Of a DNA stretch of 64,000 nt, positions 9,381 through 61,895 are shown piece after piece (position 1 is the first letter of the stretch; each line of letters opens with the position of its first letter). Source of the DNA: Gemmatimonadaceae bacterium (GTDB lineage Bacteria; Gemmatimonadota; Gemmatimonadetes; Gemmatimonadales; Gemmatimonadaceae); the NCBI GenBank assembly GCA_036504815.1, contig DASXUN010000015.1:62001-126000 (forward strand), in the 5' to 3' direction. The position numbers and the translations under genes were made by a program. The notes below the pieces were generated by a model that saw only the letters and a program-made list of their open reading frames with translations, did not search any database and had not been told where the DNA came from.

Positions 9381-9446
9381 CTGTCGTTTCGCTGTTGTCT
9401 CTCTGTTGTTTCTCTGTTGTTTCTCTGTTGTCTCTCTGTTGTCTCT
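9381..9446. repeat. 11-bp tandem repeat (CTGTTGTYTCT), five perfect units plus one degenerate
   Basis: Five head-to-tail copies of CTGTTGTCTCT or CTGTTGTTTCT run from 9392 to 9446, preceded by a degenerate copy (CTGTCGTTTCG, 9381-9391). The array ends one base before the stop codon of the sigma factor gene. The reverse-complement unit recurs at 10817-10860. Confidence 0.9.
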
Positions 9447-9447
9447 C

Positions 9448-10338
9448 TTAAGCGCTGAACGACTGAAGCGCCCGGCCTACGTCGCCCTCACGCAGCCTCT
9501 TAAGCGCCCGGTCTCGTAGTTGCCGCACCCGCTCTCGGGTGACGCCGAGCATCGAGCCGATTTCCTCGAGCGTGTGCTCGCGTCCGCCCTCGAGGCCGAA
9601 GTAGAGGCGCAGCACCTTGGCATCGCGCGGCGGGAGCGTGCCGAGCGCCTGCTCAATCTCGTCGGTGAGGAAGCGGTTCATCGCCTCTTCCTCGGTGTCG
9701 GGCATCTCGTCGGCGACGAAGCGTTCGATGAGGGAGCGGTCGCCGTCGGGATCCATGGGGGCGTCGAGGCGCACGTCGCCGCTGTTGAGCGCGGCGAGTG
9801 ACGAGACGACGTCCACCGAGAGGCCCGTTACCTTGGCCAATTCCTCGGGGGTGGGTTCCCGGCGCATCTTCTGGCGCAGGATCTCCGAGGCCTTGATGAT
9901 GCGCGACAGGTCGGCGGTGCGGTTGAGCGGCACGCGGACGGTGCGTCCCTGCCGCGCGAGCGAGGACAGGATGGCCTGCCGGATCCACCAGACGGCGTAC
10001 GAGATGAACTTCACGCCCTGGTCGGGATCGAACTTTCGCGCGGCGGTCAGGAGGCCGACGTTCCCTTCGCCGATGAGATCGATGAGGGGGAGGCCGCGGT
10101 TCTGGTACTTCTTCGCGACGGAGATGACGAAGCGCAGGTTGCGCTTGACGAGTTCCTGCAATGCATCCTGGTCGCCCGCGCGGATCTTGCGCGCGACCTC
10201 GATCTCCTCGTTGCCCTTGAGCAACGGGTAGGTGCTGACCTCGTACAGGTACTGGTCGAGGATGTCGCGCTCGGGCTCGCTGGGCGCGATCCCTGCGGGG
10301 ACCGCGCGGCGACGGCGGCGCTTGACTTCAGTGGCCAT
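9448..10338 (-). CDS. RNA polymerase sigma-70 factor, short RpoD/SigA-like
   Basis: This is a primary-type or group-2 sigma factor of 296 residues that directs RNA polymerase to promoters. Region 1.2 (residues about 25-55) is followed by region 2 with DLIGEGNVGLLTAARKFDP and YAVWWIRQAI, region 3, and region 4 with TLEEIGSMLGVTRERVRQLR. It lacks region 1.1, so it is much shorter than E. coli RpoD. The start ATG at 10336-10338 is followed by a basic stretch (KRRRRRAV). It may be the housekeeping sigma factor or a stationary-phase-type paralogue; the window does not decide. Confidence 0.92.
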   Translation of the reverse strand: MATEVKRRRRRAVPAGIAPSEPERDILDQYLYEVSTYPLLKGNEEIEVARKIRAGDQDALQELVKRNLRFVISVAKKYQNRGLPLIDLIGEGNVGLLTAARKFDPDQGVKFISYAVWWIRQAILSSLARQGRTVRVPLNRTADLSRIIKASEILRQKMRREPTPEELAKVTGLSVDVVSSLAALNSGDVRLDAPMDPDGDRSLIERFVADEMPDTEEEAMNRFLTDEIEQALGTLPPRDAKVLRLYFGLEGGREHTLEEIGSMLGVTRERVRQLRDRALKRLREGDVGRALQSFSA

Positions 10339-13308: not shown

Positions 13309-13385
<77 letters not shown>

Positions 13386-13428
13386 GAACGCAACCCCTTA
13401 TGTGATAAGGGGTTGCGTTCTTCATTTT
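13386..13428 (+). terminator. Island-borne terminator after tRNA-Pro
   Basis: A perfect 15-bp stem (13386-13400 with 13406-13420, loop TGTGA) is followed by TTCATTTTC. It begins immediately after the attachment repeat, so the island supplies a new end to the tRNA transcript. Confidence 0.85.
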
Positions 13429-39275: not shown

Positions 39276-40078
39276 CGTGGTGCTCGAGAGGCTATGGCGA
39301 CAGGAAGGCCACTCGTTCGATACATGGGGGGCTGCGCGCGACGGCAGCAGCCAAGACGACGCAGCCGGCTTCGTGTGCCCCGGCGCACGTCGTCCAACAG
39401 GCGTCTCCGTCAGGTATTAACGGCGAGCTCGTCGTTCGGTAGCGATCCAGAGTCCTCCTGTCCGTCACCGACCTCGCCGTGCAGCGCGCCGAAGCGACGG
39501 CGCTTAGTACCACAGTTTCAGGTCTGACCAGCCGGGCGCGCGCGGCAGACGCCGCGACAAAGGGGGCTCCGCCCGGCACTACGCACGTCGACCGGAGCGT
39601 GCCAGCGATTCAGCACCTCTTGGCCCGCCTCGTCTTCCAGCAACGCCCGCCGGATCCCCAGCGCGTCATCGCGTGCTCCCGCTGGCAACGCCGCCATCAA
39701 GAAGCCGCCCGTCGGGCGCACTTCCGCCCGCACAGACATGACCCGCAACTGTAGTACTAGGCATCGTGCTGGGGGAAATGGAGGCTCGGGAGAAGACGGC
39801 CTACGAGCGGGTGGACGATCTTCCACTCATCGACGACTAGTGTTCCCTCGGTGAGTATCGGGCGCGCAGCTCTTGCCCGCACCGTCGCGTGGCGTTCGTG
39901 TGGGATGAACCGAACCGTCGTCACCTCGCAGGATGCGGCCCGGATCTGGCCGCCTCTGGACAACCGACCGCGTTTCGTCGAGTCTAGCGCGAGGGCGAAG
40001 GTCTCACCGGTTACTCCCCTGCAGCACACAGCAAGTCGCCACCATCACTCGCGCGTCCGCGCGTGTGGGAGGTTGAGT
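39276..40078. other. Gap before tcmP; possible small minus-strand gene at 39518-39739
   Basis: No clear gene is seen. A minus-strand frame from the ATG at 39739 to 39518 (73 residues, MSVRAEVRPTGGFLMAALP onward) has GC-rich third positions and may be a small gene, but nothing else supports it. The tcmP promoter should lie near 40000. Confidence 0.35.
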
Positions 40079-41188
40079 ATGAGTCAGAAGCCGCGAACCC
40101 TTCGATGGGCTCTCGATGAGCATTCGCACGCGAAGCACGCCGTCCTTCGAGAGTACCTGAAGGCGTGGCTGCCGATATCGGCCTTTTCGGAGGATTCGTT
40201 CCTCTTTGTGGACGGCTTCGCGGGCCCTGGTCGCTACTCGACCGGAGAGGAAGGCTCACCCATCATCGCCTTGCGTGCTTATCTGGAGCATAGGGCACGG
40301 CCGCACTTCACCGGCACTCCGTACTTCGCCTTTATCGAGGGTGACTGCGATCGGGCTGCCGCGCTGGAAGCGGAGGTGAAGCATACGCTCGACGGCGTGG
40401 CCTCTCCTCCGCCGTACGACGTGGAACACGGCACATTCCACGAGGTGCTGGCCTCGCTGCGCGATCACCTCACGGAGCGCCGGCTGCACCTGAAGCCGGC
40501 GTTTGTCATGGTTGATCCGTTCGGCATCGCGGACACGCCGATGTCGGATTTGGTTTGGCTGATATCGAATCCCAAATGCGAACTGTACGTGTCGTTGATG
40601 GCATCGTTCATCACACGCTTCGAAGGAACGGAGAGCTTCGAGCAAGCACTCGACGCGCTCTACGGCACCCACGCCTGGCACGACTTCACCGATCTGCCGC
40701 ACCCGGAGAAGCGAGTGGCGCTGCTGAACCTGTATGAGCGGCAGTTGCGCACGGCGAGGCCGGGTCTGCTGGTCCTGCGCTTTGATCTTTACGACGGCAA
40801 CGTCTACAAGTACACCATCTTTCACGCGTCGCGGCACGAACGGGCGTGCGAACGCATGAAGCAGGCGATCTGGACGCTGGACCCGAGCGGGCGTTTCCAG
40901 TTTCGTGGACGCGGGGATGTGGATCAGCTCAGCCTGTTCGGACCGCGGCCGTGGAGTGAGGCGCTGTGCCGAGAGTTGCTCGAACGGATCCCGCCCTCCC
41001 CTGCGTGGACGATGGTGGCGGAGCTCGAGATCTACCTGCGATCAGATCGCACCCGCTTCCACCCGGGGCAACTGAAGACTGCCCTCAAAGACCTGGAGCG
41101 CGATGGCCAAATCGTGGCCGACCCTTCGACGCGCCGCCGACACGGTGAGTTTCCATCCCGCACGAGGGTACAGCGCGCGTCGCCCTAG
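40079..41188 (+). CDS. tcmP: Three-Cys-motif partner protein TcmP
   Basis: This 369-residue protein matches TcmP, named for its constant pairing with a three-cysteine protein. Recognisable stretches are WALDEHSHAKHAVLREYL, LFVDGFAGPGRY and FVMVDPFGIADTPMSDL, which suggest a Rossmann-like, methyltransferase-related fold. GGGAGG precedes the ATG. The gene converges on its DUF5131 partner, and the two stop codons overlap within CTAG at 41185-41188. The pair is common on mobile and defence islands; its reaction is not known to me. Confidence 0.88.
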   Translation: MSQKPRTLRWALDEHSHAKHAVLREYLKAWLPISAFSEDSFLFVDGFAGPGRYSTGEEGSPIIALRAYLEHRARPHFTGTPYFAFIEGDCDRAAALEAEVKHTLDGVASPPPYDVEHGTFHEVLASLRDHLTERRLHLKPAFVMVDPFGIADTPMSDLVWLISNPKCELYVSLMASFITRFEGTESFEQALDALYGTHAWHDFTDLPHPEKRVALLNLYERQLRTARPGLLVLRFDLYDGNVYKYTIFHASRHERACERMKQAIWTLDPSGRFQFRGRGDVDQLSLFGPRPWSEALCRELLERIPPSPAWTMVAELEIYLRSDRTRFHPGQLKTALKDLERDGQIVADPSTRRRHGEFPSRTRVQRASP

Positions 41189-41931
41189 ATGACCGCGCGT
41201 TCACGCGGGTATTCGTCCCACGTGCGGCCATCGAGTTCACGGCCACCGGCCTTCGGGGTAAAACCGCCCCATTGCTTCCAGAAGAAGCGGATCCTCCGTC
41301 GGCGACACAACGCGCGCAACCCACGCGCCCATCGGATGTCGACCGGGCGATACCCTGGTCCGCTCTCCCCGCCGCCGATGATCCAGTCGATCCCGCTGAC
41401 GTCGAGGTCATCGAGCGGTCCGAGCAGCGGCTCCGCGGAGATGAACCGCACCGCGGCAGGGATCGCGCGCAACGCGTTGGCGCGGTGCGCCACGTCCATG
41501 TTCTCAATCGACGTCCCCATCCAGATATTCGGGCTCCAGTTCAGCCGGTCGGCAAGGCGCACCGCGCGCTCCGGTCGCTTCGTCAGGAGTTGGAACTGAT
41601 GCTGGCCACACTCGTTCATCACCGCGAAGACCCGCTGGATGTGCTCCAGGGAGAAGTGCGCGTGAAAGACGTCGCTCATCGAGTTGACGAAGACGCGACG
41701 GGGCTCCTTCCACTTCCGCGGCAGTTCGAGGCGATCGATCCAGAAGCGTGGAGCGAACGGATCGTCGCGATTCGCGGAGGACTCCCGCACGGGCGGCTGC
41801 TGTAGGTAGAGCTGCCGTGTGCGTCGATAGGCCACGACCTGCGCGTAACAGTGATCGCAACCAGCGGAGATCTTCGTGCACCCCGTCATCGGGTTCCACG
41901 TTTCGTCGGTCCACTCGATCTTGGTCGGCAT
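41185..41931 (-). CDS. Phage Gp37/Gp68-like (DUF5131) three-Cys protein
   Basis: This 248-residue protein opens TKIEWTDETWNPMTGCTKIS, followed by AGCDHCYA, so its N-terminus carries the three cysteines (CX6CX2C) of a radical-SAM-like iron-sulphur site. It continues with RVFVNSMSDVFH and FQLLTKRPERAV, as in phage Gp37/Gp68 proteins. It is the usual partner of TcmP, encoded convergently. The ATG at 41929-41931 fits the family start; the longer open frame upstream does not. Confidence 0.9.
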   Translation of the reverse strand: MPTKIEWTDETWNPMTGCTKISAGCDHCYAQVVAYRRTRQLYLQQPPVRESSANRDDPFAPRFWIDRLELPRKWKEPRRVFVNSMSDVFHAHFSLEHIQRVFAVMNECGQHQFQLLTKRPERAVRLADRLNWSPNIWMGTSIENMDVAHRANALRAIPAAVRFISAEPLLGPLDDLDVSGIDWIIGGGESGPGYRPVDIRWARGLRALCRRRRIRFFWKQWGGFTPKAGGRELDGRTWDEYPRERAVI

Positions 41932-42290
41932 CGAGCGCTCCGGCTCAGGGTGATAGTGCCAAGAATGGCGGCACGGCTCGACCGCCGCAACCGCAACGCG
42001 GACCGGAGTTCGAAGGTCGACGAGTCGATGACCATGATGTATCGACTGCTGGGCCATATCGAGCGACCCATCGGGAAGGTTGCGCCGACGAGCGGTTGCA
42101 CCGCGCAGCGCGAGACCGACACGCGCTCGCAGCGTGTGCCCGTGCGCTGACGCACCTCGTCGACGACCTGGAACAGGTCCCGAGTGCCACGGCCTACGAG
42201 ACAACGCGGGTTCCCTGCGGGATGCCGTGTCCGCCGCTCGCGAAGCTACCACGACCCTCTGCGTGTGCTGTACCACCGCGACTGCCAGCG
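41932..42290. other. Gap between DUF5131 and E1 genes
   Basis: I see no gene. The stretch follows the E1 gene's stop and precedes the DUF5131 gene on the same strand, so it should hold a terminator or a promoter; neither is obvious. Confidence 0.45.
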
Positions 42291-43694
42291 CTAACCCCAG
42301 AGTGACCGATTCACCTGCCGCATGCTGGCGCTGCCGCAGAACACGCAGTTTGCGTCTGCCAATCGTCGCCGACGGCGAGACGCGAGAGGCGGCCGCCAGG
42401 CGCTGACGCTCCAGTAGTTGTCGCTTCTAGGAGGGCCACTCGTCAAGCGCCGCGCCAGCTCCAGGGCGAGCAATGTGCCGGCGAGCGCACTGATGAAGGC
42501 GAAGGGCGCCAACACGCGTTCGTCCGCCGTCGCCGCCAGCGCTCCCGAGGCGCACAACTGCTTGAACAGCGTGTCGTAGGCCGCCCCCTCGATATCGGCG
42601 ATGACAAGGTGCGGGTGACGTTTCGCAATCCGAGCGGCGGCCCGCGAACTGATGCGTGATTCTCGAACATCCGTCACTGTGACATCGAGATGATCCGCGA
42701 TATGTTGTTCAAGCGAATACTCCGCTTCGTCGGCGCGGTAGATACACGCCAAGCAGGCGGCCGTCGTCGGTTGGCGGTGATGATGGATGACCACTTCGTG
42801 AATGCCGGTGGTCGAGGCGTCGAACACCTCGCCTGGACACTCATTCTGCAGCTCGCGTCGCGCGCGACGACTATCAACCGCGACGATGAGACGAGGTAAC
42901 CATGCGCCATTCGTCTTCATTGGGAGGTTCTGGAGCCGCGCCCTGTAGCCCCGAAGCGTCAATTGCGCGAAGTCCGCGCGCGCCTTCTCGGCGAGACACA
43001 GAGCCTTCGCTTGGCCGATATTGGGCGGATTGAAATAGAGCTGTCGATTCAGGTTACCTGACGCCACGACATCGTCGTCCGCGATGACCAAGTCTCCGGA
43101 CACCGGGAGATGCCGAAGCGCCCAGAGAAATCCGTTTCCGATGGCGCCCGCGCCTGCCAGATACGCGGTCCCCACATCAAACGGGGTGGTAAGTTGCACA
43201 TCGTCGAGCCCTACCACGGCGAACGACAGACGAAACGGCAGGCGCAGCGGCACCGGACCCGATTGCGGCATGGTTTGGGGCAGAAGCGCGCGGATGGCGG
43301 CCGCAGCGATGTAACACGCCGCGAGCGCCACGTAGGGTCGCGACACGGGAACGTCGAGAGCCGCGGGGAGCTTCGCGTCGTCGATCGTGAGGCCCGCACG
43401 ATCGAGGACCGCGAATCGGCGTGGTGCCGTGCTCCTCGGTGTGGTCGCTCCCACAACGACCTCAAGCTCCGGCACGAAGCCCTCAGACGTCATGCTGACG
43501 TGGGTCACGGAACGCGCCAATAACTCGATCACGTCCTGCGCGAGGGCGAAGGCGGTCGCGTCGCTCGCTGGAGCGCTGACCAGCACATGGCGGTCCAGCG
43601 TGCGCTCAGCCTCATCGACGCTGAGTCCGGCGGCGCGGGCGAGCGTGCGAGCATTCTCTGATCGGGCCTCCTGCGTCAGGAGAGATCCAGGCAT
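42291..43694 (-). CDS. E1-like (ThiF family) adenylyltransferase of a ubiquitin-like system
   Basis: This 467-residue protein would adenylate the C-terminal glycine of the small Ubl protein. The ATP site is AGAGAIGNGFLWALR (181-186 core), with LVIADDDVVASGNLNRQLYF carrying the acidic and N/R/Q residues typical of E1 enzymes. Two CxxC pairs (CLAC near 314-317 and CVFC near the C-terminus) probably bind zinc. The N-terminal 150 residues are an extra domain I do not recognise. GGGAGG precedes the ATG, which overlaps the JAB gene by 19 bases. Confidence 0.9.
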   Translation of the reverse strand: MPGSLLTQEARSENARTLARAAGLSVDEAERTLDRHVLVSAPASDATAFALAQDVIELLARSVTHVSMTSEGFVPELEVVVGATTPRSTAPRRFAVLDRAGLTIDDAKLPAALDVPVSRPYVALAACYIAAAAIRALLPQTMPQSGPVPLRLPFRLSFAVVGLDDVQLTTPFDVGTAYLAGAGAIGNGFLWALRHLPVSGDLVIADDDVVASGNLNRQLYFNPPNIGQAKALCLAEKARADFAQLTLRGYRARLQNLPMKTNGAWLPRLIVAVDSRRARRELQNECPGEVFDASTTGIHEVVIHHHRQPTTAACLACIYRADEAEYSLEQHIADHLDVTVTDVRESRISSRAAARIAKRHPHLVIADIEGAAYDTLFKQLCASGALAATADERVLAPFAFISALAGTLLALELARRLTSGPPRSDNYWSVSAWRPPLASRRRRRLADANCVFCGSASMRQVNRSLWG

Positions 43695-44137
43695 GTGTCC
43701 ACCTCCCGTGCGGGCACCGCACACCAAACATTGCTGGCGTTCAGGCGGAAGACCCTCACATCGTCCGCGAAAGTCCGGTCCTCGGTGTTGAGGGCGAACT
43801 GGGGCAGGACCAGCGAGAGCGCCCCTTCATGGCGAATGATGGCCCACGTATCATCCGCGACTGAATGGAATGCGTCGCGCGGATGCGTGTGCACCTGGGC
43901 TGCCACCATCAATCGTTCACGTCGAAGATGTGCCTTGAGCTCGCGCATGCTCGCTGGCGGAATCCGGAAGAGATCCGCGCGCGCTTCCTGCATTGGCCGA
44001 TAGCATTCGGTGACCACGATGGAGTCGCCCGCTCGTCGACCAAGCCAAAGCACCACGCACTCCACGCGCGTGCGTCCCGTCTCCTGAAGTACTGAGAGCG
44101 TTGTCGCGCGCAGCGACGCGTTCACCCGGACTCGCAT
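43676..44137 (-). CDS. JAB/MPN-type metallopeptidase (deubiquitinase-like)
   Basis: This 153-residue protein has a JAMM zinc site: VHTHPRDAFHSVADD, with His83, His85, Ser92 and Asp95 and the upstream Glu44 in VVTECYRP. The spacing fits HxHPx5SxxD, one residue shorter than the eukaryotic form. In bacterial ubiquitin-like operons such enzymes trim or remove the Ubl protein. Its ATG overlaps the stop of the CEHH gene (ATGA), so it is coupled within the operon. Confidence 0.88.
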   Translation of the reverse strand: MRVRVNASLRATTLSVLQETGRTRVECVVLWLGRRAGDSIVVTECYRPMQEARADLFRIPPASMRELKAHLRRERLMVAAQVHTHPRDAFHSVADDTWAIIRHEGALSLVLPQFALNTEDRTFADDVRVFRLNASNVWCAVPAREVDTCLDLS

Positions 44138-44574
44138 CAGCCGGCTCCTTTTCGCCAGGCGTGCCAAAGCTTTGTCAGTAATCCGCCAAGCGAGTATTCG
44201 TCCAGTGTTTTCAACGGTTCCCACGGATCATTCAAATGGCTCGGATGGCAGTGGTACTCGCGCGACCCGCGCATGCAAACGAAGGGTCGACCGGTCGTGG
44301 GATGTGGACTGTTGTTGAACACGCCGGTGGGGTTCGGCAGGAGTTGCGATAGCGCCGTCCCCGTCGCGTCGAGGAGTGCGATGGACGCGGGCGTGTCATT
44401 CCAATCGTCGCACGTCAATCGCACGCGGAGCGTCGTGCGCCCAGCGGCCGCAAAGGAACAATCAAGATCAGGGAACTCCTGGGTATGCAAGATCCAGCCG
44501 CGCTGCGCGAGGAGCGACGCTGGAATGCGCGCGACCTCCTCGCGAAAGCGGGCTTTGGCAGCTTCGGGGTGCAC
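44137..44574 (-). CDS. CEHH-type putative metal-binding protein in the E2 position
   Basis: This 145-residue protein carries the motif FVCMRGSREYHCHPSHLNDPW, with Cys100, Glu106, His108, His110 and His113. This is the pattern of the predicted metal-binding (CEHH) proteins known only from bacterial ubiquitin-like operons. The earlier part (TTLRVRLTCDDWNDTPASI) is compatible with an E2-like beta-meander, but no HPN motif is seen. The GTG at 44574 follows GGAGG by six bases. Whether it acts as an E2 carrier through Cys100 or in another way is unknown. Confidence 0.75.
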   Translation of the reverse strand: MHPEAAKARFREEVARIPASLLAQRGWILHTQEFPDLDCSFAAAGRTTLRVRLTCDDWNDTPASIALLDATGTALSQLLPNPTGVFNNSPHPTTGRPFVCMRGSREYHCHPSHLNDPWEPLKTLDEYSLGGLLTKLWHAWRKGAG

Positions 44575-44576
44575 GG

Positions 44577-44888
44577 CTACCCTCCCCCGCCTTCCGGGGG
44601 GCCCCAATCCAGCTCCACCCGTCCCTGGAGGTGGTTCTCGAGGTAACTCCTCGTGGGATCCACCTGACGCAGGCCGCCATCATCGGAGACCGTGACGAGC
44701 CACCCGTCGGTGCTCGTGAGGTGCAGGGCGTGCGCCGCTGCCTTGAGCACCACCGACACTTTCTGGTGCGGCGGAATCTCCTGGTACCCTTCCTCGGGAT
44801 AGAGTCCGGCGGTCGTGGAAACCGAGACCTGCACCTTCTCGGCCCGCTCGACCGCCGCGTTCAGGTGGGACTGCGCAAGATCGCTCAC
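44577..44888 (-). CDS. Ubiquitin-like protein with C-terminal glycines
   Basis: This 103-residue protein ends GPPEGGGG, so an activatable glycine tail is already exposed and no trimming is required. Residues 40-95 (HQKVSVVLKAAAHALHL, WLVTVSDDGGL) fit a beta-grasp fold. Residues 1-30 form a separate helical and polar extension. It starts with GTG after GGAGG and ends two bases before the CEHH start. It is the first gene of the operon and has a consensus promoter. Confidence 0.8.
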   Translation of the reverse strand: MSDLAQSHLNAAVERAEKVQVSVSTTAGLYPEEGYQEIPPHQKVSVVLKAAAHALHLTSTDGWLVTVSDDGGLRQVDPTRSYLENHLQGRVELDWGPPEGGGG

Positions 44889-44918: not shown

Positions 44919-44947
44919 AGTTTATGGCCAGTTTATACATATGTCAA
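44919..44947 (-). promoter_or_regulatory. Promoter of the ubiquitin-like operon
   Basis: On the minus strand a perfect TTGACA (44942-44947) is separated by 17 bases from TAAACT (44919-44924). It is one of the strongest promoter matches in the window. It lies inside the repeated GGCCAGTTT sites, so it is likely repressed. Confidence 0.75.
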
Positions 44948-44957
44948 TGGCCAGTTT
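44924..44957. promoter_or_regulatory. Operator-like direct repeats and palindrome between divergent operons
   Basis: ATGGCCAGTTT occurs at 44924-44934 and 44947-44957 (23-base period), with a related GGGCCATTT at 44981-44989. The palindrome ACATATGT lies between them (44937-44944). The sites cover the ubiquitin-like operon promoter. The RHH and XRE proteins encoded divergently are the obvious candidates to bind here. Confidence 0.6.
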
Positions 44958-45025
44958 TCACACTATTTGTCTTGCGTAATGGGCCATTTGTTGTTACCTT
45001 ACAGGTCGCTCACAGGGGGGGACGT

Positions 45026-45235
45026 ATGGATCGCCGACAGATGACGCTGATGCTAAGCGACCGCGAAATGACGGTGCTCGATGAGCTCTCTGCGCGCCGT
45101 GGGATGTCGAAGACCGCACTCGTTCGTCAGGCGCTGAGGCTTTATCAGTCGATCACCGAGCGCATTGCCTCCGGCGACAAGCTCTTCATGGAACACCCGC
45201 ACACGAAGGAGAAGGCAGAGCTCGTCGTGCTATGA
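45026..45235 (+). CDS. Ribbon-helix-helix DNA-binding protein
   Basis: This 69-residue protein (RQMTLMLSDREMTVLDELS, then RGMSKTALVRQALRLYQS) has the CopG/Arc ribbon-helix-helix fold. It is the first gene of a four-gene operon in which each start overlaps the previous stop. Next to a GNAT gene, it resembles the antitoxin of RHH-GNAT toxin-antitoxin pairs. It is well placed to repress the divergent promoters just upstream. Confidence 0.85.
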   Translation: MDRRQMTLMLSDREMTVLDELSARRGMSKTALVRQALRLYQSITERIASGDKLFMEHPHTKEKAELVVL

Positions 45236-45873
45236 CGGAGTTGATCAACGTCGTCCCGCTCTACAATCGACAGACGGGCGCGTTTGAGGAAGCTCGACTC
45301 TACCAGCCGGTCGATCGCTCACATCTCGATGACTTCGATGCCCGCTGGATGCCGGAGTTCGATCGGCGATTCGAAGCTCATGCGACCCGCGGCGGCCGCG
45401 GCATCCCCGAGCAACTCCAGGATTGTCGCTGGGACTGGCGCGACTTGGTCGAGAAGTACGCCCGACGGCTTGATTACGAGTCGTTTGCCCTTGAGTGCGC
45501 AGGAAGCACCCAAGGGCTGCTCCTGGTGGCCACGGCGGCGTTTGGTCGCGCCCCCGGGAACATGGGCCTTGAGATCATCTATGTTGATCGCCTCGCGACG
45601 GCGCCGTGGAACCGGCTCGGTGGCGCACGACCGCCGGTGTACAAGGGAGTCGGTCGCATCTTGTTGATCGCCGCCATGAGCTTGAGCGATGAATTGGGAT
45701 TCCACCGACGTCTGGGATTGCACGCCTTGCCGCAGGCGGAGTCGTGGTACCGAGAGGTGTGCGGCATGGAAGATCTCGGTCCGGATCGCGCCTATGCGAA
45801 CCTCTGCTACTTCGAAATGACGGAAACCCAAGCCGCGGCCTTCGTGGCCGAGGACGAGGAAGGCACCGCATGA
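45232..45873 (+). CDS. GNAT-like acetyltransferase
   Basis: This 213-residue protein has a GNAT-like acetyl-CoA region (GLEIIYVDRLATAPWN, then GVGRILLIAAMSLSDELG, then LGLHALPQAESWYREVCGM). It is longer than typical RHH-linked GNAT toxins of about 160-170 residues, because of an N-terminal extension. Its ATG overlaps the RHH stop (ATGA). It could be a toxin neutralised by the RHH protein or a protein-modifying enzyme; sequence alone does not decide. Confidence 0.7.
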   Translation: MTELINVVPLYNRQTGAFEEARLYQPVDRSHLDDFDARWMPEFDRRFEAHATRGGRGIPEQLQDCRWDWRDLVEKYARRLDYESFALECAGSTQGLLLVATAAFGRAPGNMGLEIIYVDRLATAPWNRLGGARPPVYKGVGRILLIAAMSLSDELGFHRRLGLHALPQAESWYREVCGMEDLGPDRAYANLCYFEMTETQAAAFVAEDEEGTA

Positions 45874-46391
45874 GACTGATTGTGTCGAAGGAGTGGCTGC
45901 GTCGACGCATCGCGTCGGATCCTGACATGGAAACCGACGCGGGGCTTTCCGTGGCCCGTCTCGACGGCCTGATCGCCGATGCCGTCGCTCCGCAAGGATT
46001 GCCGGGCGTACGCTCCAGTTCCACGGAGGACCCACGGGCCCTTCGCCTTGCGCTCGCCCGTGTGGTGAAAGCGCTGCGCGTCCAATCTCACGCAACCGTG
46101 CAGGCCCTGGCCGAGCGCCTCGATGTGGAACCTGCGGACCTGAAGGGACTCGAGGAGGACCCGGCGTTTATCGTTCCGCCCCGCACGCTCTCTTTGGTGG
46201 CAAAGCACTTTCAACTCCCGGTGAGCGAACTTGCCATGCTCGCAGGTGCGACGCGGGTGACGGATCACACCCTGGCTGACAATGCGCTAAAGTTCGCGGC
46301 GCGATCCGCCACGCTCAGCGACGTCGACGACGAGGGTCGCGAAGCCCTATTCGCCTTCGTCCGGTTTCTCACCGAACGTACCCACCGATGA
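45870..46391 (+). CDS. XRE-type helix-turn-helix regulator
   Basis: This 173-residue protein has a helix-turn-helix around SHATVQALAERLDVEPADLKGLEED and a C-terminal helical part. It is coupled by ATGA overlaps to the GNAT gene before it and the ImmA gene after it. XRE repressors paired with ImmA/IrrE peptidases are typically cut or destabilised on a signal, which derepresses target genes. Confidence 0.8.
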   Translation: MRLIVSKEWLRRRIASDPDMETDAGLSVARLDGLIADAVAPQGLPGVRSSSTEDPRALRLALARVVKALRVQSHATVQALAERLDVEPADLKGLEEDPAFIVPPRTLSLVAKHFQLPVSELAMLAGATRVTDHTLADNALKFAARSATLSDVDDEGREALFAFVRFLTERTHR

Positions 46392-47320
46392 GCCTCGACG
46401 CGCCCGTGGTAGGTGTGCGCGAGCGCCGGTCCATTGCAGATGCCGTGGCGCGCGTCCTTCGGGATCTGGGAACGCCGGAGCCGCCGCTCAAGCTCGAAGA
46501 CGTGCGGCAGCTGCTGGCGCTCGACCTGCAGTACTATGACGGTTCCGACCGGAGCGTCATCAAGGCGTTTACGCACCAGTACCGGCTGTTCGCCAAGAAA
46601 CGGCTTCCGGCCCTCGGCGCCAAACTGCAGCAGACGCTACGACAGTCGAAGCTGTTAGCGTTCTGGGTGCCGGACGGTAAGCGCGTTTTGATCGACGAGA
46701 GCGCGCCGAAGCCGAAGCATCGATGGATCGAAGGGCACGAGATCGCGCACAGCCTGACGGACTGGCATCGTGATTTCCTATTGGGCGACATCGCCGCGAC
46801 ACTCGATCCGCAGTGCCATGCGACCATCGAAGCAGAAGCGAACTATGGTGCGGGTCAGCTCCTCTTCTTGCATGATCGCTTCGGCCGTGAAGCACGAGAC
46901 CTGCCCGCGACGTTCTCCTCCGTCCATCTGTTGGCCGGTCGCTACGCGAACTCCATCACCTCCACCCTGTGGCGATTCGTAGAGCAGCGGAATCCCAGTG
47001 GGGCGTCGTTCGGCATGATCAGTGTGCACCCGAACGTCCCCACGATCGGCGCGCACGATGGCCCTGACCCGTGGCGCTATTTCATCCGGTCGGCTGCCTT
47101 CCAAACTCAGTTCTCGCATGTCACGGCGCACGACGCGTATCGCATTCTCTCGACGCACGCGACCTATCAGCGCCGCGGCCCGATTCTCGAGATCGAGACG
47201 CGACTGCGTGACGTGAACGGGGTTGGGTGGCACTTCACCGTTGAGTCTTTTTGCAACTCGCATGCGGTGCTGACGCTGGGAGTCGCTGTTGCTCCCGTCG
47301 CGTCACGTGTCGCGGGATAA
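46388..47320 (+). CDS. ImmA/IrrE-type zinc metallopeptidase
   Basis: This 310-residue protein has the HExxH zinc site in WIEGHEIAHSL (His117, Glu118, His121), followed by IEAEANYGAGQLL, which supplies the third ligand region, as in ImmA/IrrE (COG2856) peptidases. These cleave XRE-type repressors in phage-like elements and stress switches. It is the last gene of the divergent operon. A candidate target is the XRE protein encoded next to it. Confidence 0.9.
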   Translation: MSLDAPVVGVRERRSIADAVARVLRDLGTPEPPLKLEDVRQLLALDLQYYDGSDRSVIKAFTHQYRLFAKKRLPALGAKLQQTLRQSKLLAFWVPDGKRVLIDESAPKPKHRWIEGHEIAHSLTDWHRDFLLGDIAATLDPQCHATIEAEANYGAGQLLFLHDRFGREARDLPATFSSVHLLAGRYANSITSTLWRFVEQRNPSGASFGMISVHPNVPTIGAHDGPDPWRYFIRSAAFQTQFSHVTAHDAYRILSTHATYQRRGPILEIETRLRDVNGVGWHFTVESFCNSHAVLTLGVAVAPVASRVAG

Positions 47321-48161: not shown

Positions 48162-49625
48162 TCATCTCGCTGCGGCGCGGTCTGGCCAACGCCTCGGCAC
48201 GGATGCGACAACCGGTTCCGAAGTCCTCTCATCACTCATCTTCGCCCGCACCGCATTTCGTGCCTCCTTTGCTCGCCCGAGAAGTTCCCGGTTCTCGCGG
48301 TCTCTATAGACGCGATCACGTGTCTCGCGGCTGTTCGCCCCGATCTTCTCGAGGAGCAGGTCATCGTTGTAATGAAGGGCTGCGACGTCTATCATCGTGC
48401 GGCGCACACCGTACCAACCGCGGCCGGGCACCGGAGTGATTCCCACGTGCTTCTCGAGCTCGTGAAAGGCGTCAAGCGCGGATCGCCGATTCCAGCGCGA
48501 CAATCGCTTTCGCGGGGTGATGACGCCCTCGCGCAGCTTTCCGCCGGGAAAGAGCGGGTAGTCCCGCCGGCCAGCCATCTGGTACTCTCGTTCCAACTTG
48601 CACAGATACCCCGACGCGAGAATCGCGCGTATCCGCTCACCCTGGGCGTCGTCGAGCTCGATGTCCGTGCCCGGTTTGCTGCCTTGCTGCGGAATGTGCA
48701 GCGTGATGCGGAAACTCGCACCCCGCCGCTCGGTGTTGAGGTCGGTTCGATTGCACGCCAGCAGCTGCCCCAAGCGAAGTTCAGCACCAACGTCGAACAG
48801 CAACTTGAAGCGTGGGTCGCCGTATTCGTCCGCGGCGCGAAGCAGTTTCGCAATATCGGCAGCTTCGTGACGAGGTCGACGGGGAGTATGCTTCTGTTTG
48901 AATTGCTTTTCCCACGCGCGGCCGAGCTGGGCATGCCAGTCCGCGGGCACGAGCACATGGTCTCTGGACACGCGACCGCTTTCCACGAGCCACCGCGCGA
49001 TCTTCGTCAGCGCGGCCACTGCGATTTCCAGCGACCGTGGGCTCGGTGTCGGAGACGGGACGGACGAGGGTGCCGCGTCAGCGGTCAACCGCGCCTGGTG
49101 CTGTCTGGCGCTCGCTGCAATCCAAGCAGTGACGCCTGCCATCACGTCGTCGGAACGTACAGCGTCCCAAAGGGCATCGCCGGGCAGGAAGTCCTTGGCG
49201 AGGCGGCGCACGAGGCGCGCAGCGTCTGCATGCTGTCGCGCAGCGCCGAGGTAGACACCGCCTGGGTCCGTAGCGAGTGCAATCTCGACGCCTTCGCGGA
49301 GCGTGAGTGCCGCGAATACCTGCCCCCTCCAAGTCCCCGCCCGAACCGCCGCCAATCGCGCGGACTGTGCGTTCGCGATTTCTCGTGCTCGCTCGATCTT
49401 CGCTTCCACCAGTTCACCCTTGGCGTCGCGGATCGTGAGCGCCACTCGGACCTTCACCCGCCGATCTCGACCGCTGCGACGCGGATCGGAGTAGCGAAGC
49501 TGTAGTCTCCCGGATCGATCGGCACGCTCCTCAATGATGACGCGCGCGCCGTGCGCACCGCAGGAATAGCGGAATGGGGCGGCGCGCGCGGCGCGGCGCG
49601 CGCGAACGCCCAAGCGTCGCGTCAC
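48162..49625 (-). CDS. Tyrosine-type integrase of the island
   Basis: This 487-residue site-specific recombinase is divergent but has the family core: GAELRLGQLLACNRTDLN with the first catalytic Arg (about 283), GWYGVRRTMIDVAALHY in place of HxxR (about 406), and the nucleophile Tyr in RDRVYRDRENREL (about 438). The N-terminal part contains the arm-type and core-binding regions. The start is a GTG overlapping the excisionase stop (GTGA). It is the natural candidate for insertion into tRNA-Pro, although it lies about 3.4 kb from attR and far from the tRNA. Confidence 0.82.
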   Translation of the reverse strand: MTRRLGVRARRAARAAPFRYSCGAHGARVIIEERADRSGRLQLRYSDPRRSGRDRRVKVRVALTIRDAKGELVEAKIERAREIANAQSARLAAVRAGTWRGQVFAALTLREGVEIALATDPGGVYLGAARQHADAARLVRRLAKDFLPGDALWDAVRSDDVMAGVTAWIAASARQHQARLTADAAPSSVPSPTPSPRSLEIAVAALTKIARWLVESGRVSRDHVLVPADWHAQLGRAWEKQFKQKHTPRRPRHEAADIAKLLRAADEYGDPRFKLLFDVGAELRLGQLLACNRTDLNTERRGASFRITLHIPQQGSKPGTDIELDDAQGERIRAILASGYLCKLEREYQMAGRRDYPLFPGGKLREGVITPRKRLSRWNRRSALDAFHELEKHVGITPVPGRGWYGVRRTMIDVAALHYNDDLLLEKIGANSRETRDRVYRDRENRELLGRAKEARNAVRAKMSDERTSEPVVASVPRRWPDRAAAR

Positions 49626-49987
49626 GAGGTCCTTCCGCGCTGGGATCGGCTGCTCGTGAGAAAAGCCTGAAGCGCCGGCATGCTGACGCGATATTGCTTC
49701 CCGGCGCGCTCGGCCTCGAGATTCTTCTGGCGAATCTGCCAGCGCACAGCCTCGTCCGATACACCGAGCCTCGCGGCCACCTCCGCGACCGTCAACCAGG
49801 CCTCTTCGGCGGCTGCCTGCTGGAATGCTCGGTCCATCTCGCGACATACTCCCTGCAGCGTCTCTACCATCGGGTTGCTCGGGTTTAGCTCGTTCGCCGC
49901 CTCGGCCAACTGACGAAGTCGGTTTGCGAGATCGCGGATGGGTGCGGCGGCAATGACGGAGGGCCCTGGCGGGCGCGATTGTCTCAT
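49622..49987 (-). CDS. Excisionase-like MerR-type DNA-binding protein
   Basis: This 121-residue protein has a helix-turn-helix of the excisionase/MerR kind (WLTVAEVAARLGVSDEAVRWQI, then QYRVSMPALQAFL). The coupling GTGA to the integrase gene suggests it directs excision. The ATG at 49985-49987 is preceded by AGGGG. The N-terminal 60 residues are helical and unassigned. Confidence 0.82.
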   Translation of the reverse strand: MRQSRPPGPSVIAAAPIRDLANRLRQLAEAANELNPSNPMVETLQGVCREMDRAFQQAAAEEAWLTVAEVAARLGVSDEAVRWQIRQKNLEAERAGKQYRVSMPALQAFLTSSRSQRGRTS

Positions 49988-50277
49988 TGGTCTTTCCCCT
50001 GACACCCGGATGCGGTGCACTGGCCGCAGCCTCGATGGACTGGGAAAGAGCGTACGGGCTCGCGCGTCCGCACCGGCGGTATCCGCCGCGCACGGTCACC
50101 GCAGTTCTCCCGCCGCCTTACTGAGTGGTCACAAGAGACGCGCACGTCGACATGAAGACGGTCCATGTCAATGTTGTAGCGTGCTGACGTGCCGAGTGTC
50201 GGCCAGTCGCAGCTTGGTCGGCGGTGCTTCTGCGGCCGCAGCCTAGGTCGACCCTGCGTTCCCGTCGTCGGGCGATG
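49988..50277. other. Gap upstream of the excisionase gene
   Basis: I see no gene. It should hold the promoter of the excisionase-integrase pair. Confidence 0.45.
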
Positions 50278-52657: not shown

Positions 52658-52977
52658 CGGTTTCCGCCGGGCATCGCGCGGAGCGTGGGTCGACGAGCAA
52701 AGCGAGCCGATGTCCCGGATTCCCTCTGCTTGCGGTGGCATAGAAACTCGGGGCAACGCGATCCGGGGCAGAGTGCCCGAGTTACCGTGACGGCATTGCT
52801 TCGCGGCGTAAGGAGGCGCTCGGCACGAGCAGGCGTGATCGCGTAAGACCGGGGCCACACGGCACCCACAAGCGGGACAGATTGCACTCGGTGCCTCTTG
52901 GCAATCTGCGGAAGAAACTGACCAGCCTGCGAGTAACTCACGATGTTACCGGCACTTGCGTACGCGTCCCCTGCTTC
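52658..52977. other. Right end of island, no gene
   Basis: No gene is seen. Ten bases resembling the tRNA-Pro anticodon stem (CCTGCTTCGG) directly precede the exact repeat but with one G missing from the loop. Confidence 0.5.
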
Positions 52978-53018
<41 letters not shown>

Positions 53019-53051
53019 ATGGAAGTGGTTGATTTACATGATGTTATAACA

Positions 53052-56770: not shown

Positions 56771-59700
56771 CTAGCCTTGAACTCCTGTATCGGAAGTCGA
56801 CTTCCTCTTCCTCTGCGCCAACCACGCATCCAGCTCATCCCGCTCATACAGCACCCTCCGCCCCACCTTGAAGAACGGCGGAGAATCCCCACTCCACCGC
56901 AACTTGGCGAGCGTCTGAGTCGCAAGGCCGAGGTACTCGGCCGCATCCTCCGCGATCAGCATGCGCTTGCCCGCCGGGGCATCGTCCGGCCCCTGAGGTT
57001 GCGCCTGTGGCCTTTTCGGCTTCTTGGCTTCGTCTCGCGCAGCGTGTGCCTCGAACTCCTCCAGAAAGGCGATGAACCCGTCCGGCGAGACAAACCGAAC
57101 CCGCTTGTCGTAGTGTCCGAAGAGCGCTCGCGCCTCGACGAGAGTCTCCTCCTCGGGACTGATGAGAACCGCATAGCCGAACCCGGCCGACAAGCACTTG
57201 GAGAGATTCTGCGTCTCGTGCTCGGCGCCGGTGCTCACCGAGATCTCACACCCGATCGACAGGTCGCCCCTCTGAAGGTGAACGTCAATGTGGCCGTGTC
57301 CATCGAGCACGGGCCGCTCCACCGTCACGGTGTACCCGCGGTCCTCGGCGAGCTTTCGAACAAGCTGCTGCAGGTACTTGTGTTGCGGACCTCCTCGGCC
57401 CGGAAGTCGTTCTGCGGCCGGCGCCGGCGCCGGCTGGGACTGAGCCGGAGCCTCCGCCTTCGAGGCTCGCCGTCGTTTCGGCGCAGGCGGCTTCCCCTCG
57501 TCGTCCCCCTGCTCCTCTGCGATGCTCGCTCGCAGAATCGCCTCGACCTCGGCTTTGGGCTTCGCGTAGCGAGCGCGTGAGGCTTCGATCACTGCGGCGC
57601 TGCGCTCACGTGCCGTCTGCTCGGGCACGGGCGGCAACGGAGTCGTCCGGAGGTTGAAGTCGAAGTCCGGGCGCTCGATGCGCGCTATCGCTTCACCGAG
57701 GCCAAGGTTCTGGAGATCCTTCGCCTCGAAGAATGAGAATCCGTCCGCGAGCGTCCGTGCGTCCTGGTCGCCGACACGAAACACGAGACGGGTGTACGCG
57801 TTGCCGAGCACGGCGCCGGCAACTTCCTCGCTCCGACTCTTGAGCTGGCGCATCTCCTGATGCGCGAGCGTGAGGCCGAGTCCGTACTTGCGGGCACCGG
57901 AGAGGATGGCGGCGATGGACGGTGTGATGAAATGATGGAACTCGTCAATGTACAAAAAGAACGGCACGCGCCCCGCGGCGGCCTCGTCCTGCCTGCTCAT
58001 CGCGGCTTGCGCAATCTTCGCGACGACGAGCGAGCCGAGCAGATGTGAGTTCTCCTCTCCGATACCGCCCTGCGACAGCTTGGCCAGGAGGATCTTCCGA
58101 CCGTCCATGATGGCCCGCATGTCGAGGCTTTCCTTCTGGGCGACCATGTGCCGAATGAGCTTCGGGCGCAGGAAGGTGTTGAGACGGGTCAGGAGCGGTG
58201 CATGAGGCAGTCCCTTCAATAGCGCGAACTCTTCCTGCCAGTACGACACCACCTGATCGTCCTGCACTGTCTCGAGGAAGCGGGCGCGGAAGCTCTTGTC
58301 GATAAGGAACCGCCGCAGATCGATGAGCGTCCCGCCCTCGGAGCTTTCGAGGAACGCGAGGATGGCGTTCCCGAGCACAGTCGACATCTGGTCGCCAAAC
58401 GTCGTGGAAAGGCGCTTGAAGACCGCCGCGAGATCTGAGGAGAGCAGCGTGCGTTCGAGTTCCGAGTGGGCGGACAGGATGTTGAAGCCCACTGGAAAGG
58501 CTTCATCGGCCGGATCGAACACAATGACGTCGCCGGCACGCTCGGCAGGAATGCGAGCGAGCACGTCGTCGATCAGGTCGCCGTGCGGGTCGAGCACCGC
58601 GAAGCCGTTACCGGCGGCGATGTCCTGCGCGATCATCGACAAGAGCAGCGTGCTCTTGCCGGTGCCGCTGGCGCCGATGACATACGTGTGACGTAGCCGT
58701 TCTTCGGCGGACAACGAGACCTTGCGCGTCTCGCCGTCGTGTTCGTTGGTGCCAATGAGCAACGCCTTCCCGAGCGCAGAAGCGGGCGCTGCCTTTGTGC
58801 GAGAGCCCTGCCGCAGCAGCCGCTCTGAGCGCACCGAGGCCGACGGCGGATGTACCAGCGTCAGCACTTCTGAGAGCGATAGTAACATGCCGCTCCGGTG
58901 CGTGGCGCGATCCAGCAAGTCTTCCATCTCGACGTCGAAGCCGTGATCGCCTGAGTCCGCGGGGGCGAGTTCGTTCGACTCGGAGCGTGTGGCCCCAGCG
59001 ACGGCGTACGCCAACCGCTGCCCGACGTCCACGGCTCCGTCTTCATCGGCCGCAATGGCCGCGATCCGGAGCACTGCTGCATAGGTTGGTTCGGAGAACT
59101 TGGTGCGAATGAGGGACATCACCTTGTCGACGTCGTCGATGCTCGCCGCGAAGTCCTCGAACTCCTTCTTCCACTTCGGGCTGGCCGGAGCCAGAATCAC
59201 CTGGACGACGCCGAGTTCCCCAGCGGTCAACTGATCGAGCACTCCGACGATGCCGATCAATGGGTCAGCGTCGAGCCGGTCATCCGAGCGGAGCTGCCGG
59301 AAGACACGCTCCTGCAGGCCCATTCCGACGACGATGGCGTGGCCTTTGTCGCGCGTCCACGCCGTGCGCAGAACGTCCGTTCCTTGCCGGAGTTTGGCTT
59401 CGGGGAAATGGGCACGCGTCGCCCCTACGACCGAGATTCGGTCCGCTGCGCTGCATGAGATGACGAAGGTCACCCGCTCGGGTGACCCGATGATCTCCAT
59501 ACTGAGCGGTTCGGCAACGCTGTGGAGCGACGCAAGCCAGCTTCTCGCCGCACCCGCCTTGACGACGAAATCACGCGGCAGGAGCAGTTCGAACTCAACG
59601 AGGTCGCTCGGACCATCGTATCGCGCGGTCTCCGGTTCCTCCGGATCTTCCGCTACTGGCGCCGGCCCGCGCGCTGCTTCCTTCACGCGCTCGAACAAGC

Positions 59701-59860
59701 CGGGCCGGCGCCCGTCATCAAGCACCGGCTTCCGCGCGCGCTTGTTCGCGAAGAGCGGAGTGAACGCCGGCTCCACGGCCACGCGACCCGGTGACGGACG
59801 CACGCCCCGGGTCTGGGACTCCCAGTCGTCAAAGAGGCGCTGGAGGTCGTGCGGATGCAT
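56771..59860 (-). CDS. VirD4/TraG-like ATPase fused to nuclease-like and MerR-type HTH domains
   Basis: This is a 1029-residue protein. Residues 80-330 form an N-terminal domain I do not recognise. Residues about 385-760 are a FtsK/HerA/VirD4-type ATPase with Walker A YVIGASGTGKSTLLLSM and Walker B FFLYIDEFHHF. After a Pro/Ala linker, residues about 840-920 resemble a PD-(D/E)XK nuclease (GHGHIDVHLQRGD, then IGCEISVSTG), although the expected lysine is a serine. The last 55 residues form a MerR/excisionase helix-turn-helix (LIAEDAAEYLGLATQTLAK). It leads into a membrane protein gene and a second ATPase gene upstream in the same operon. Confidence 0.85.
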   Translation of the reverse strand: MHPHDLQRLFDDWESQTRGVRPSPGRVAVEPAFTPLFANKRARKPVLDDGRRPGLFERVKEAARGPAPVAEDPEEPETARYDGPSDLVEFELLLPRDFVVKAGAARSWLASLHSVAEPLSMEIIGSPERVTFVISCSAADRISVVGATRAHFPEAKLRQGTDVLRTAWTRDKGHAIVVGMGLQERVFRQLRSDDRLDADPLIGIVGVLDQLTAGELGVVQVILAPASPKWKKEFEDFAASIDDVDKVMSLIRTKFSEPTYAAVLRIAAIAADEDGAVDVGQRLAYAVAGATRSESNELAPADSGDHGFDVEMEDLLDRATHRSGMLLSLSEVLTLVHPPSASVRSERLLRQGSRTKAAPASALGKALLIGTNEHDGETRKVSLSAEERLRHTYVIGASGTGKSTLLLSMIAQDIAAGNGFAVLDPHGDLIDDVLARIPAERAGDVIVFDPADEAFPVGFNILSAHSELERTLLSSDLAAVFKRLSTTFGDQMSTVLGNAILAFLESSEGGTLIDLRRFLIDKSFRARFLETVQDDQVVSYWQEEFALLKGLPHAPLLTRLNTFLRPKLIRHMVAQKESLDMRAIMDGRKILLAKLSQGGIGEENSHLLGSLVVAKIAQAAMSRQDEAAAGRVPFFLYIDEFHHFITPSIAAILSGARKYGLGLTLAHQEMRQLKSRSEEVAGAVLGNAYTRLVFRVGDQDARTLADGFSFFEAKDLQNLGLGEAIARIERPDFDFNLRTTPLPPVPEQTARERSAAVIEASRARYAKPKAEVEAILRASIAEEQGDDEGKPPAPKRRRASKAEAPAQSQPAPAPAAERLPGRGGPQHKYLQQLVRKLAEDRGYTVTVERPVLDGHGHIDVHLQRGDLSIGCEISVSTGAEHETQNLSKCLSAGFGYAVLISPEEETLVEARALFGHYDKRVRFVSPDGFIAFLEEFEAHAARDEAKKPKRPQAQPQGPDDAPAGKRMLIAEDAAEYLGLATQTLAKLRWSGDSPPFFKVGRRVLYERDELDAWLAQRKRKSTSDTGVQG

Positions 59861-60562: not shown

Positions 60563-61756
60563 TCAGTCGCTCAGCGATAGGGGCGGAAGCGTGGTGGCCG
60601 AAAAGGGGCGTGAGGGTTCGCCGTCGATGAGAAGCCGGATGTAGATGTGATAGAGGGGCAAGGAGATGAAATCCTCCGCGGCGAAAGTGGGCGCGAACTC
60701 GCGCGCCAGGAAGGCCCCGTCGGCAGCGCCGACGCGAAACGCAATGAGGGTACCGGCGTTTCCAAAGACGGCGTCGCGAATGGCAGGGTCGACTTGCGAG
60801 AGGTGCTGATTGGCGAGAACCATCCCGACCCGGAACTTTCGAAGTTCGGCGAGCATGGTGGCAACGGAGAGCGTGGTGAAGGTCTGGAACTCGTCGAGAA
60901 CGATGGAAAAGTCCCGGCGTTCGCTCTCAAGAACGTTGCTTCGTGAGATCGCCGCGAGTGCAATGTGCGAGAGGAGGAACGAACCGAGCGTTGCCGCCGG
61001 CCCTTCGCCGATGAGTCCCTTGTCGACGTTCACGAGGAGGATCTTCCCCTCGTCCATGATGCGGCGGAGATCGAGTGGCTCGCCGGGTTCGACGAGGATG
61101 CGCCGGAGCGTCGGGTCGGTGAGGAGGGCGCCGATCTTGTTCTGCAGCGGTGCCACGACGACGGACCGGAAGCCCGGCGAGTACTTCTCAAACTCGTTGG
61201 TCCAGAAATCCCGAACGATTGGATCGTCAATGGACTCGACCACTTGCGAACGAAAGGTGCGGTCGGCGATGAGTCGCGGAATGTCGGCGAGCGTTGAATC
61301 GGGCCGTTCGAGGAGAGTGAAGACGACGTTGCGAAGCAGGTGCTCCAGACGAGGTCCCCAGTCGTCCGACCAGATCTTCTTGAACACCTCGACCAAGCCG
61401 GCTGCCGCCAATGCGCGCTGGCTCTCGGGGACGTTTGCTAACGGGTTGAATCGGAGTTGAAGTGTCGGATTTGTCGCGTCGAGGAAGACGATCGCGGCAC
61501 GCTGGTTCAGCGGTATGCGAGCTGCGACAGCTCGCACGAGATCGCCGTGCGGATCGAACAGTGCACTTCCCTTCCCAGCCGCGATGTCCTGAAGGACAAT
61601 CGACTGCAAGAGCGCGGACTTGCCGGTGCCGGTCTTTCCGAGGATCGCGATGTGACTGCGGCGGTCGACCTGACGAATGCCGAAGACCCGCTCATTGCGG
61701 GTGGTGTTCGTGCGCGCCAACAGTGTGACGGTATTGCCATCAGGGCGTTCGTTCAT
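60563..61756 (-). CDS. VirD4/TraG-like AAA ATPase, smaller paralogue
   Basis: This 397-residue protein has Walker A AILGKTGTGKSALLQSIV (about 39-46) and Walker B FSIVLDEFQTF (about 284), with the same ATPase architecture as the large protein downstream (DPHGDLVRAVAARIP compares with its DPHGDLIDDVLARIP). It lacks the nuclease-like and HTH domains. ATG at 61756 is used. It is the first gene of the three-gene unit. Confidence 0.88.
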   Translation of the reverse strand: MNERPDGNTVTLLARTNTTRNERVFGIRQVDRRSHIAILGKTGTGKSALLQSIVLQDIAAGKGSALFDPHGDLVRAVAARIPLNQRAAIVFLDATNPTLQLRFNPLANVPESQRALAAAGLVEVFKKIWSDDWGPRLEHLLRNVVFTLLERPDSTLADIPRLIADRTFRSQVVESIDDPIVRDFWTNEFEKYSPGFRSVVVAPLQNKIGALLTDPTLRRILVEPGEPLDLRRIMDEGKILLVNVDKGLIGEGPAATLGSFLLSHIALAAISRSNVLESERRDFSIVLDEFQTFTTLSVATMLAELRKFRVGMVLANQHLSQVDPAIRDAVFGNAGTLIAFRVGAADGAFLAREFAPTFAAEDFISLPLYHIYIRLLIDGEPSRPFSATTLPPLSLSD

Positions 61757-61895
61757 CCCCAGATTGTCTCCGAACGCTTGTGCCGATGACAGAGGGAACG
61801 GCATGCGTTCGGCACACTCTGATACCGCTCAAATAGAAAAGACCAGCGACGACGTCGCTGGTCTGGGTGGGTGCCCATGTTTCCCTGTGGATCGG

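Follow-up and report, generated by a model that had tools for sequence, protein, structure and literature searches.

Two questions are raised by a ubiquitin-like (Ubl) conjugation operon on contig DASXUN010000015.1 of a Gemmatimonadaceae bacterium (assembly GCA_036504815.1), namely which of its proteins carries out the transfer step of conjugation and what controls its expression. The operon lies on the minus strand of the window, by which we mean the whole stretch of 64,000 nucleotides analyzed here (contig positions 62,001 to 126,000); positions are those of the window unless stated otherwise. An earlier note on this stretch had described four coupled genes at 42291-44888, encoding a Ubl protein, a CEHH metal-binding protein, a JAMM peptidase and an E1 enzyme, and had left the transfer step open because no canonical E2 was seen. 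Its reading of a Bil-type operon on a mobile element held, its missing E2 did not, and a divergent cassette of four genes next to the operon had been overlooked. We put at about 0.8 the probability that the locus is a compact Bil-type conjugation operon controlled by a divergent four-gene switch.

The CEHH protein as the predicted E2

The four genes of the operon are those of a BilA-like Ubl with a single β-grasp domain (44577..44888, GTG start, 103 amino acids), a BilB-like CEHH protein (44137..44574, GTG start, 145 amino acids), a BilC-like JAB/JAMM peptidase (43676..44137, ATG start, 153 amino acids) and a BilD-like E1 (42291..43694, ATG start, 467 amino acids). They touch or overlap, as the earlier note had described: the CEHH gene starts 2 bases past the Ubl stop codon, its own stop shares one base with the JAB start (TGATG), and the E1 and JAB genes overlap by 19 bases. 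Gene starts were chosen by homologue support, and the GTG of the CEHH gene agrees with the MHP... start of its homologues. The consensus promoter that had been proposed upstream of the Ubl gene could be read from the sequence at 44919..44947 (minus strand), with a -35 element TTGACA (44942-44947), a 17-bp spacer and a -10 element TAAACT (44919-44924), and this layout recurs in relatives. Pfam searches matched the CEHH protein to Metal_CEHH (PF14455, 46.6 bits), the JAB protein to Prok-JAB (PF14464, 24.5 bits, just below the cut-off of 25), and the E1 to E1-N (PF14463) and ThiF (PF00899). PADLOC called BilC (2.4e-14) and BilD in the operon, in line with the Bil-type gene order of Ubl, peptidase and E1 proposed before. 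By its sequence, the operon is a compact member of the Bil (bacterial ISG15-like) type.

The apparent gap in the conjugation pathway closes once the CEHH protein is read as the E2. Its best PDB match by sequence is BilB, the E2 chain 8tyz_C (E 2.5e-7; 7.2e-11 with a profile of 27 relatives). In BilB, an E2, the catalytic residue is Cys138, and C138, E144, H146 and H151 make up its CEHH motif (PMC11354881, citing Chambers et al.); the window protein has C100, E106, H108 and H113 at identical spacing, C100 being aligned with C138. A structural model (pLDDT 90.6) reached Z 16.3 to BilB chain 8tz0_C across 133 residues, compared with Z 9-10 to eukaryotic E2s, so that a search for an E2 fold, which the earlier note had proposed, did find one. 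Because sequence, motif spacing and fold all agree with BilB, the CEHH protein is, by alignment and model, the E2 of this operon, and CEHH is the catalytic signature of BilB. A reading in which the CEHH protein is only an accessory metal binder, and conjugation is carried out by a separate unseen E2 or by direct transfer from E1, could draw on Iyer 2006, where operons of this kind are listed with a predicted metal-binding protein, and on public records of relatives (L012, L013 and L014) that keep the label "putative metal-binding protein". It has next to no plausibility, given that BilB was solved as the E2 in the E1-E2-Ubl complexes 8tyz and 8tz0 and that the window protein agrees with it by sequence, fold and exact spacing. 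The label in the three records is an outdated name for a Bil E2.

The other proteins of the operon point the same way. The E1 matches BilD (8tyz_A) with E 1.2e-18, or 6.6e-34 with a profile of 27 relatives; its catalytic C381 aligns with BilD C417 and is invariant across 27 sequences, and the protein also contains the cysteine pairs C314/C317 and C450/C453. The JAB protein matches BilC (8tyx_B, E 1.1e-13), and its motif residues (E, HxH, S and D) are invariant. For the Ubl, sequence searches of the PDB gave no meaningful match, profile included, and we therefore compared structures. The model (pLDDT 82 overall and about 90 across the domain) is a β-grasp fold for which 8tyz_B (Z 10.8) and 8tyx_A, both Bil Ubl chains, rank first; because SUMO-like proteins score close behind, the Ubl fold alone cannot single out Bil. 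Structure prediction, one of the checks proposed earlier, thus confirmed the single β-grasp domain; the N-terminal extension that had been described along with it is short (approximately 17 residues) and modelled with low confidence. The four glycines at the C-terminus were read correctly, the protein ending in WGPPEGGGG. The C-terminal GGG is invariant in 27 aligned sequences, of which 7, the window copy included, end exactly at GGGG and the remainder extend a few residues further. Because the Ubls of the window's group end exactly at GGGG, they would need no C-terminal trimming, and JAB would then serve only as a deconjugase. Ubl open frames range from 90 to about 270 amino acids among relatives, in which the protein is short, is tandem, or has the same C-terminal domain behind an N-terminus that is charged and coiled-coil-like.

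By homology to the solved Bil proteins, E1 would adenylate the C-terminal glycine of the Ubl and load the Ubl onto C381, from where it would move to C100 of the E2 and then onto target proteins, and JAB would remove it from the conjugates. For the Bil system described so far, the target is reportedly a phage structural protein. A sulfur-carrier metabolic or housekeeping role of the operon, instead of defence, is suggested by E1 and Ubl folds that are common to ThiF/ThiS and MoeB/MoaD, but seems highly improbable with both an E2 and a JAB protein in the operon, a specific match to Bil, a patchy distribution on mobile elements and plasmids, and a neighbouring cassette that is also found with CBASS.

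A scan based on the E1 alignment gave 41 loci, approximately 34 of them with the order Ubl-E2-JAB-E1, in Pseudomonadota, Acidobacteriota, Bacteroidota, Myxococcota, Verrucomicrobiota and others, so that the arrangement goes beyond chance. In the E1 tree, which has long branches and an unsure deep order, a compact branch separates from canonical Bil and from multiubiquitin-ThiF (Bub, bacterial ubiquitination-like) operons in 96% of bootstrap trees. Judged by E1 sequence, the window operon belongs to this compact branch beside canonical Bil. A search of viral contigs for close E1 relatives returned none. The genes divergent from the operon differ in other Bil relatives, for example an Xre/MbcA-RES toxin-antitoxin pair (L013:1207-2296) or a WYL-domain protein (L014:1297-2238).

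A four-gene cassette divergent from immune operons

Divergently from the Ubl gene, the plus strand carries four genes linked by ATGA overlaps. These encode a 69-amino acid ribbon-helix-helix (RHH) protein of the CopG family (45026..45235; RHH_1, 7.4e-6), a GNAT-like protein with a weak family match (45232..45873), a helix-turn-helix (HTH) protein that is CapH-like by position (45870..46391; generic HTH matches), and a CapP-like ImmA/IrrE metallopeptidase with an intact HEIAH motif (46388..47320). PADLOC gave a capP match for the peptidase in all 11 members, and the PDB match is IrrE (3dte, 0.0005). The motif R/K-x-x-G-x-G is present in most relatives of the GNAT-like protein; the window copy has V.

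The full cassette, with position and orientation unchanged, is found in 8 compact Bil loci that belong to different phyla (the window, L015, L021, L022, L023, which is the same as L012, L025, L026 and L027). A tblastn search with the GNAT-like protein found it on plasmids, divergent from Bub operons (L062, L065, L069-L072, L090 and L091) as well as from CBASS operons (L067, L068 and L073), and a genome search contributed two more, one at a Bub operon (L080) and one at a CBASS operon (L079). In a further locus (L066) the divergent neighbour of the cassette is a ThiF-JAB operon in which no E2 was recognised, and in three others (L063, L064 and L092) there is no immune operon on the divergent side; of these, L064 has Cas9 and L092 a downstream Bub operon. 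Among 298 genomes from the phylum, surveyed without regard to neighbourhood, 4 have the GNAT-like protein, and all 4 copies adjoin an immune operon (2 Bil, 1 Bub and 1 CBASS). Two cyanobacterial relatives of this protein were examined; neither adjoins an immune operon, and both are without a matching RHH gene. Searches with the protein gave no more than distant matches in viral contigs and none in phage records.

Operator boxes and their probable reader

The intergenic regions of the cassettes have in common T(A/G)GC(C/T)A boxes that overlap the promoter of the immune operon, often spaced by 11 or 22-23 bp. At the window locus two predicted TGGCCA operator boxes lie within the promoter spacer (44925..44930) and adjoining the -35 element (44948..44953), and an imperfect third box, GGGCCA, can be read at 44981..44986. 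We counted 47 boxes in 21 loci, some close relatives included, against 4.4 +/- 2.1 (maximum 11) in 300 dinucleotide shuffles. The sequence ATGGCCAGTTTW was found twice in the 3.5-Mb genome of the window, both times at this locus. A pattern of 26 bases with boxes of the other type was confined to the cassette in 5 of 8 plasmids tested and occurred nowhere in the other three. Boxes are also carried upstream of Ubl in L022 and L023. The contig of L040 breaks off 169 bp upstream of Ubl; it has two boxes 11 bp apart and opens with the beginning of an RHH gene whose type matches these boxes.

Two observations bear on which protein reads the boxes. Across Bil, Bub and CBASS, RHH proteins with the strand DR(R/K)QMTL go with TGGCCA boxes and those with K(K/R)TMTLNL go with boxes of the TAGCTA type. 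The discordant locus L066 follows the same rule, since its GNAT-like protein and peptidase cluster with those of the Bil cassettes (96/91) but its RHH strand and boxes are both of the other type. Secondly, 9 Bil loci have a divergent gene for an HExxH peptidase and no RHH or GNAT match, and 8 of them are boxless (L020, L024, L028, L030, L034, L054, L055 and L056). Because most of these loci are boxless and box type tracks the RHH strand, L066 included, the sequence comparisons favour the RHH protein as the reader of the boxes. The 11-bp spacing suits RHH dimers. That the HTH protein reads the boxes instead, the RHH-GNAT pair having another role, would be in keeping with CapH being the repressor in known CapH/CapP pairs (PMC13373217), but we regard it as unlikely, because it is at odds with the missing boxes in the 8 loci, with the combination found in L066, and with the fit of the box spacing to RHH dimers.

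A proposed portable switch for immune operons

With the RHH protein as the favoured reader, the best reading of these sequence patterns is that the cassette acts as a portable switch keeping immune operons silent until a stress or infection signal. In the proposed control arm, the RHH protein would hold the operon low by binding the T(A/G)GC(C/T)A boxes at the immune promoter. In CapH/CapP, CapP activated by single-stranded DNA cleaves the repressor CapH; by likeness to this pair, the HTH protein and the ImmA/IrrE peptidase might allow expression once DNA damage or infection occurs. The RHH and GNAT-like proteins are encoded together, an arrangement also seen in RHH-GNAT toxin-antitoxin pairs; what the GNAT-like protein would do is the least certain step.

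Alternatively, an RHH-GNAT toxin-antitoxin pair and a CapH/CapP-like pair could have come to lie side by side in defence islands as separate units, with no control over Bil. Toxin-antitoxin pairs are frequent on mobile elements, RHH-GNAT is a known kind of them, and other Bil loci have different neighbours. We nevertheless consider independence doubtful, as the four genes keep one order and one orientation next to three types of immune operon, the boxes sit on the immune promoter itself, and their type tracks the RHH strand.

Several points weigh against control by a four-gene switch. The plasmid examples of the cassette were drawn from a list ranked by sequence identity with the query, a selection that the phylum survey alone avoids, and some close relatives are among the loci in the box counts. 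Similarity to CapH/CapP is moderate, with E 6.5e-11 for capP and an HTH protein assigned by position and generic HTH matches only. The GNAT label comes from weak Pfam matches of some members, the best being Acetyltransf_10 at 2.2e-5 and the window copy having none, and otherwise from names in public records; the protein had no match in the PDB. Finally, the ninth of the Bil loci with a peptidase and no RHH match, a Bacteroidota operon, does have TAGCTA and TGGCTA boxes 9 bp apart upstream (L037:8643-8657).

One of the Bil cassettes, in L015, is nested among Bub cassettes (100/99) although the operon has a Bil E1. Because a Bil operon here carries a Bub-type cassette, these sequences suggest that the cassette has been exchanged between systems. 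We would go further only tentatively, with somewhat less than even confidence, to propose that an undescribed portable cassette moves among Bil, Bub and CBASS with its own operator code, and that its GNAT-like protein, as a toxin or a modifier, is set free at the same time as the immune operon. If so, a single switch would arm immunity and growth arrest simultaneously.

Regulator pairs of the CapH/CapP type beside such operons are already known: CapW or CapH and CapP were associated with 219 of 544 Bub operons, and CapK and CapS with five Bil operons (PMC13373217, 2026). The words GNAT and ribbon-helix-helix are absent from that article, and in the searchable literature, which excluded the primary Bil, Bub and CapH-CapP papers, we came across nothing on the four-gene cassette, on its boxes or on a Bil operon carrying it. 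The cassette would indicate that three types of bacterial immune operon have a layer of control in common, whose operator is readable from sequence, and it offers a testable statement on how potentially toxic immune systems stay silent. The boxes may also serve as a marker for finding more immune operons; in the truncated L040 contig they already indicated the regulator.

A tRNA-integrated element carries the operon

In ten congeneric genomes synteny holds up to the 3' end of a tRNA-Pro gene (tRNA at 13309-13383), at about 13385, and is then lost. The attachment repeat at this 3' end (13336..13386, plus strand) marks the left boundary of the element. Copies of the final 50 bp of the tRNA lie at 52970..53019 (plus strand) and at contig position 147565-147615, and synteny returns further on. 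The operon lies within the first of the tandem segments bounded in this way (13386-52970), whose right end is the copy at 52970, and thus in an element integrated at tRNA-Pro, which bears out the mobile island described earlier. Beyond the cassette, the minus strand encodes a probable tyrosine recombinase or integrase of uncertain start (48162..49505; weak match to phrog_216 integrase, E 0.006) and an excisionase-like HTH_17 protein (49622..50020).

The second tandem segment extends from 53020 to the end of the window at 64000 and on to contig position 147565. It has genes for coupling-protein-like (TrwB/TraG-D) products at 56774-59860 and 60566-61804, and part of it is matched at 90% in a congener (G007). 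Directly after the E1 gene, a TcmP-like gene (39851-41188, plus strand) faces a DUF5131 (Gp37/68-like) gene (41185-42276, minus strand; true start probably near 41930), and the two match the PADLOC candidate PDC-M30A/B. We considered this pair as a part of the system and excluded it because no relative locus has it. A repeat of about 57-77 bp at about 9375-9450, possibly REP-like, is dispersed in dozens of copies, 86-100% identical, over the genomes of the genus.

Comparison with known systems

With Bil, the window operon shares the gene order, an E1 with a catalytic cysteine, a CEHH E2, a JAMM peptidase and a Ubl with C-terminal glycines. It differs in a shorter E2 (145 amino acids compared with about 200), a shorter E1 (467 compared with 535), and a Ubl that is already mature at GGGG and has one β-grasp domain in its 103 amino acids, not the two of type BilA. 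Because the Ubls of the window's branch carry one to three β-grasp domains, we did not take a two-domain Ubl as defining Bil; single-domain Ubls have reportedly been described before. The Bub operons are likewise Ubl-E1 conjugation operons and may bear the same divergent cassette and boxes, as in the nine loci named above (L062, L065, L069-L072, L080, L090 and L091). In contrast to the window operon, however, they have a multiubiquitin Ubl, a Prok-E2_E or DUF6527 partner in place of a CEHH E2, and an E1 on another branch.

On the control side, the cassette has in common with CapH/CapP an HTH protein and an ImmA/IrrE (CapP-like) peptidase adjoining an immune promoter, to which it adds the RHH and GNAT-like genes in front, a longer peptidase (about 310 amino acids) and the RHH-linked T(A/G)GC(C/T)A boxes. 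As in RHH-GNAT toxin-antitoxin pairs of the TacAT and KacAT type, a small RHH gene comes first and overlaps a gene for an acetyltransferase-like protein. The GNAT-like protein of the cassette is larger (about 210 amino acids) and matches GNAT families weakly, and the pair is joined with the HTH and peptidase genes in one unit beside immune operons.

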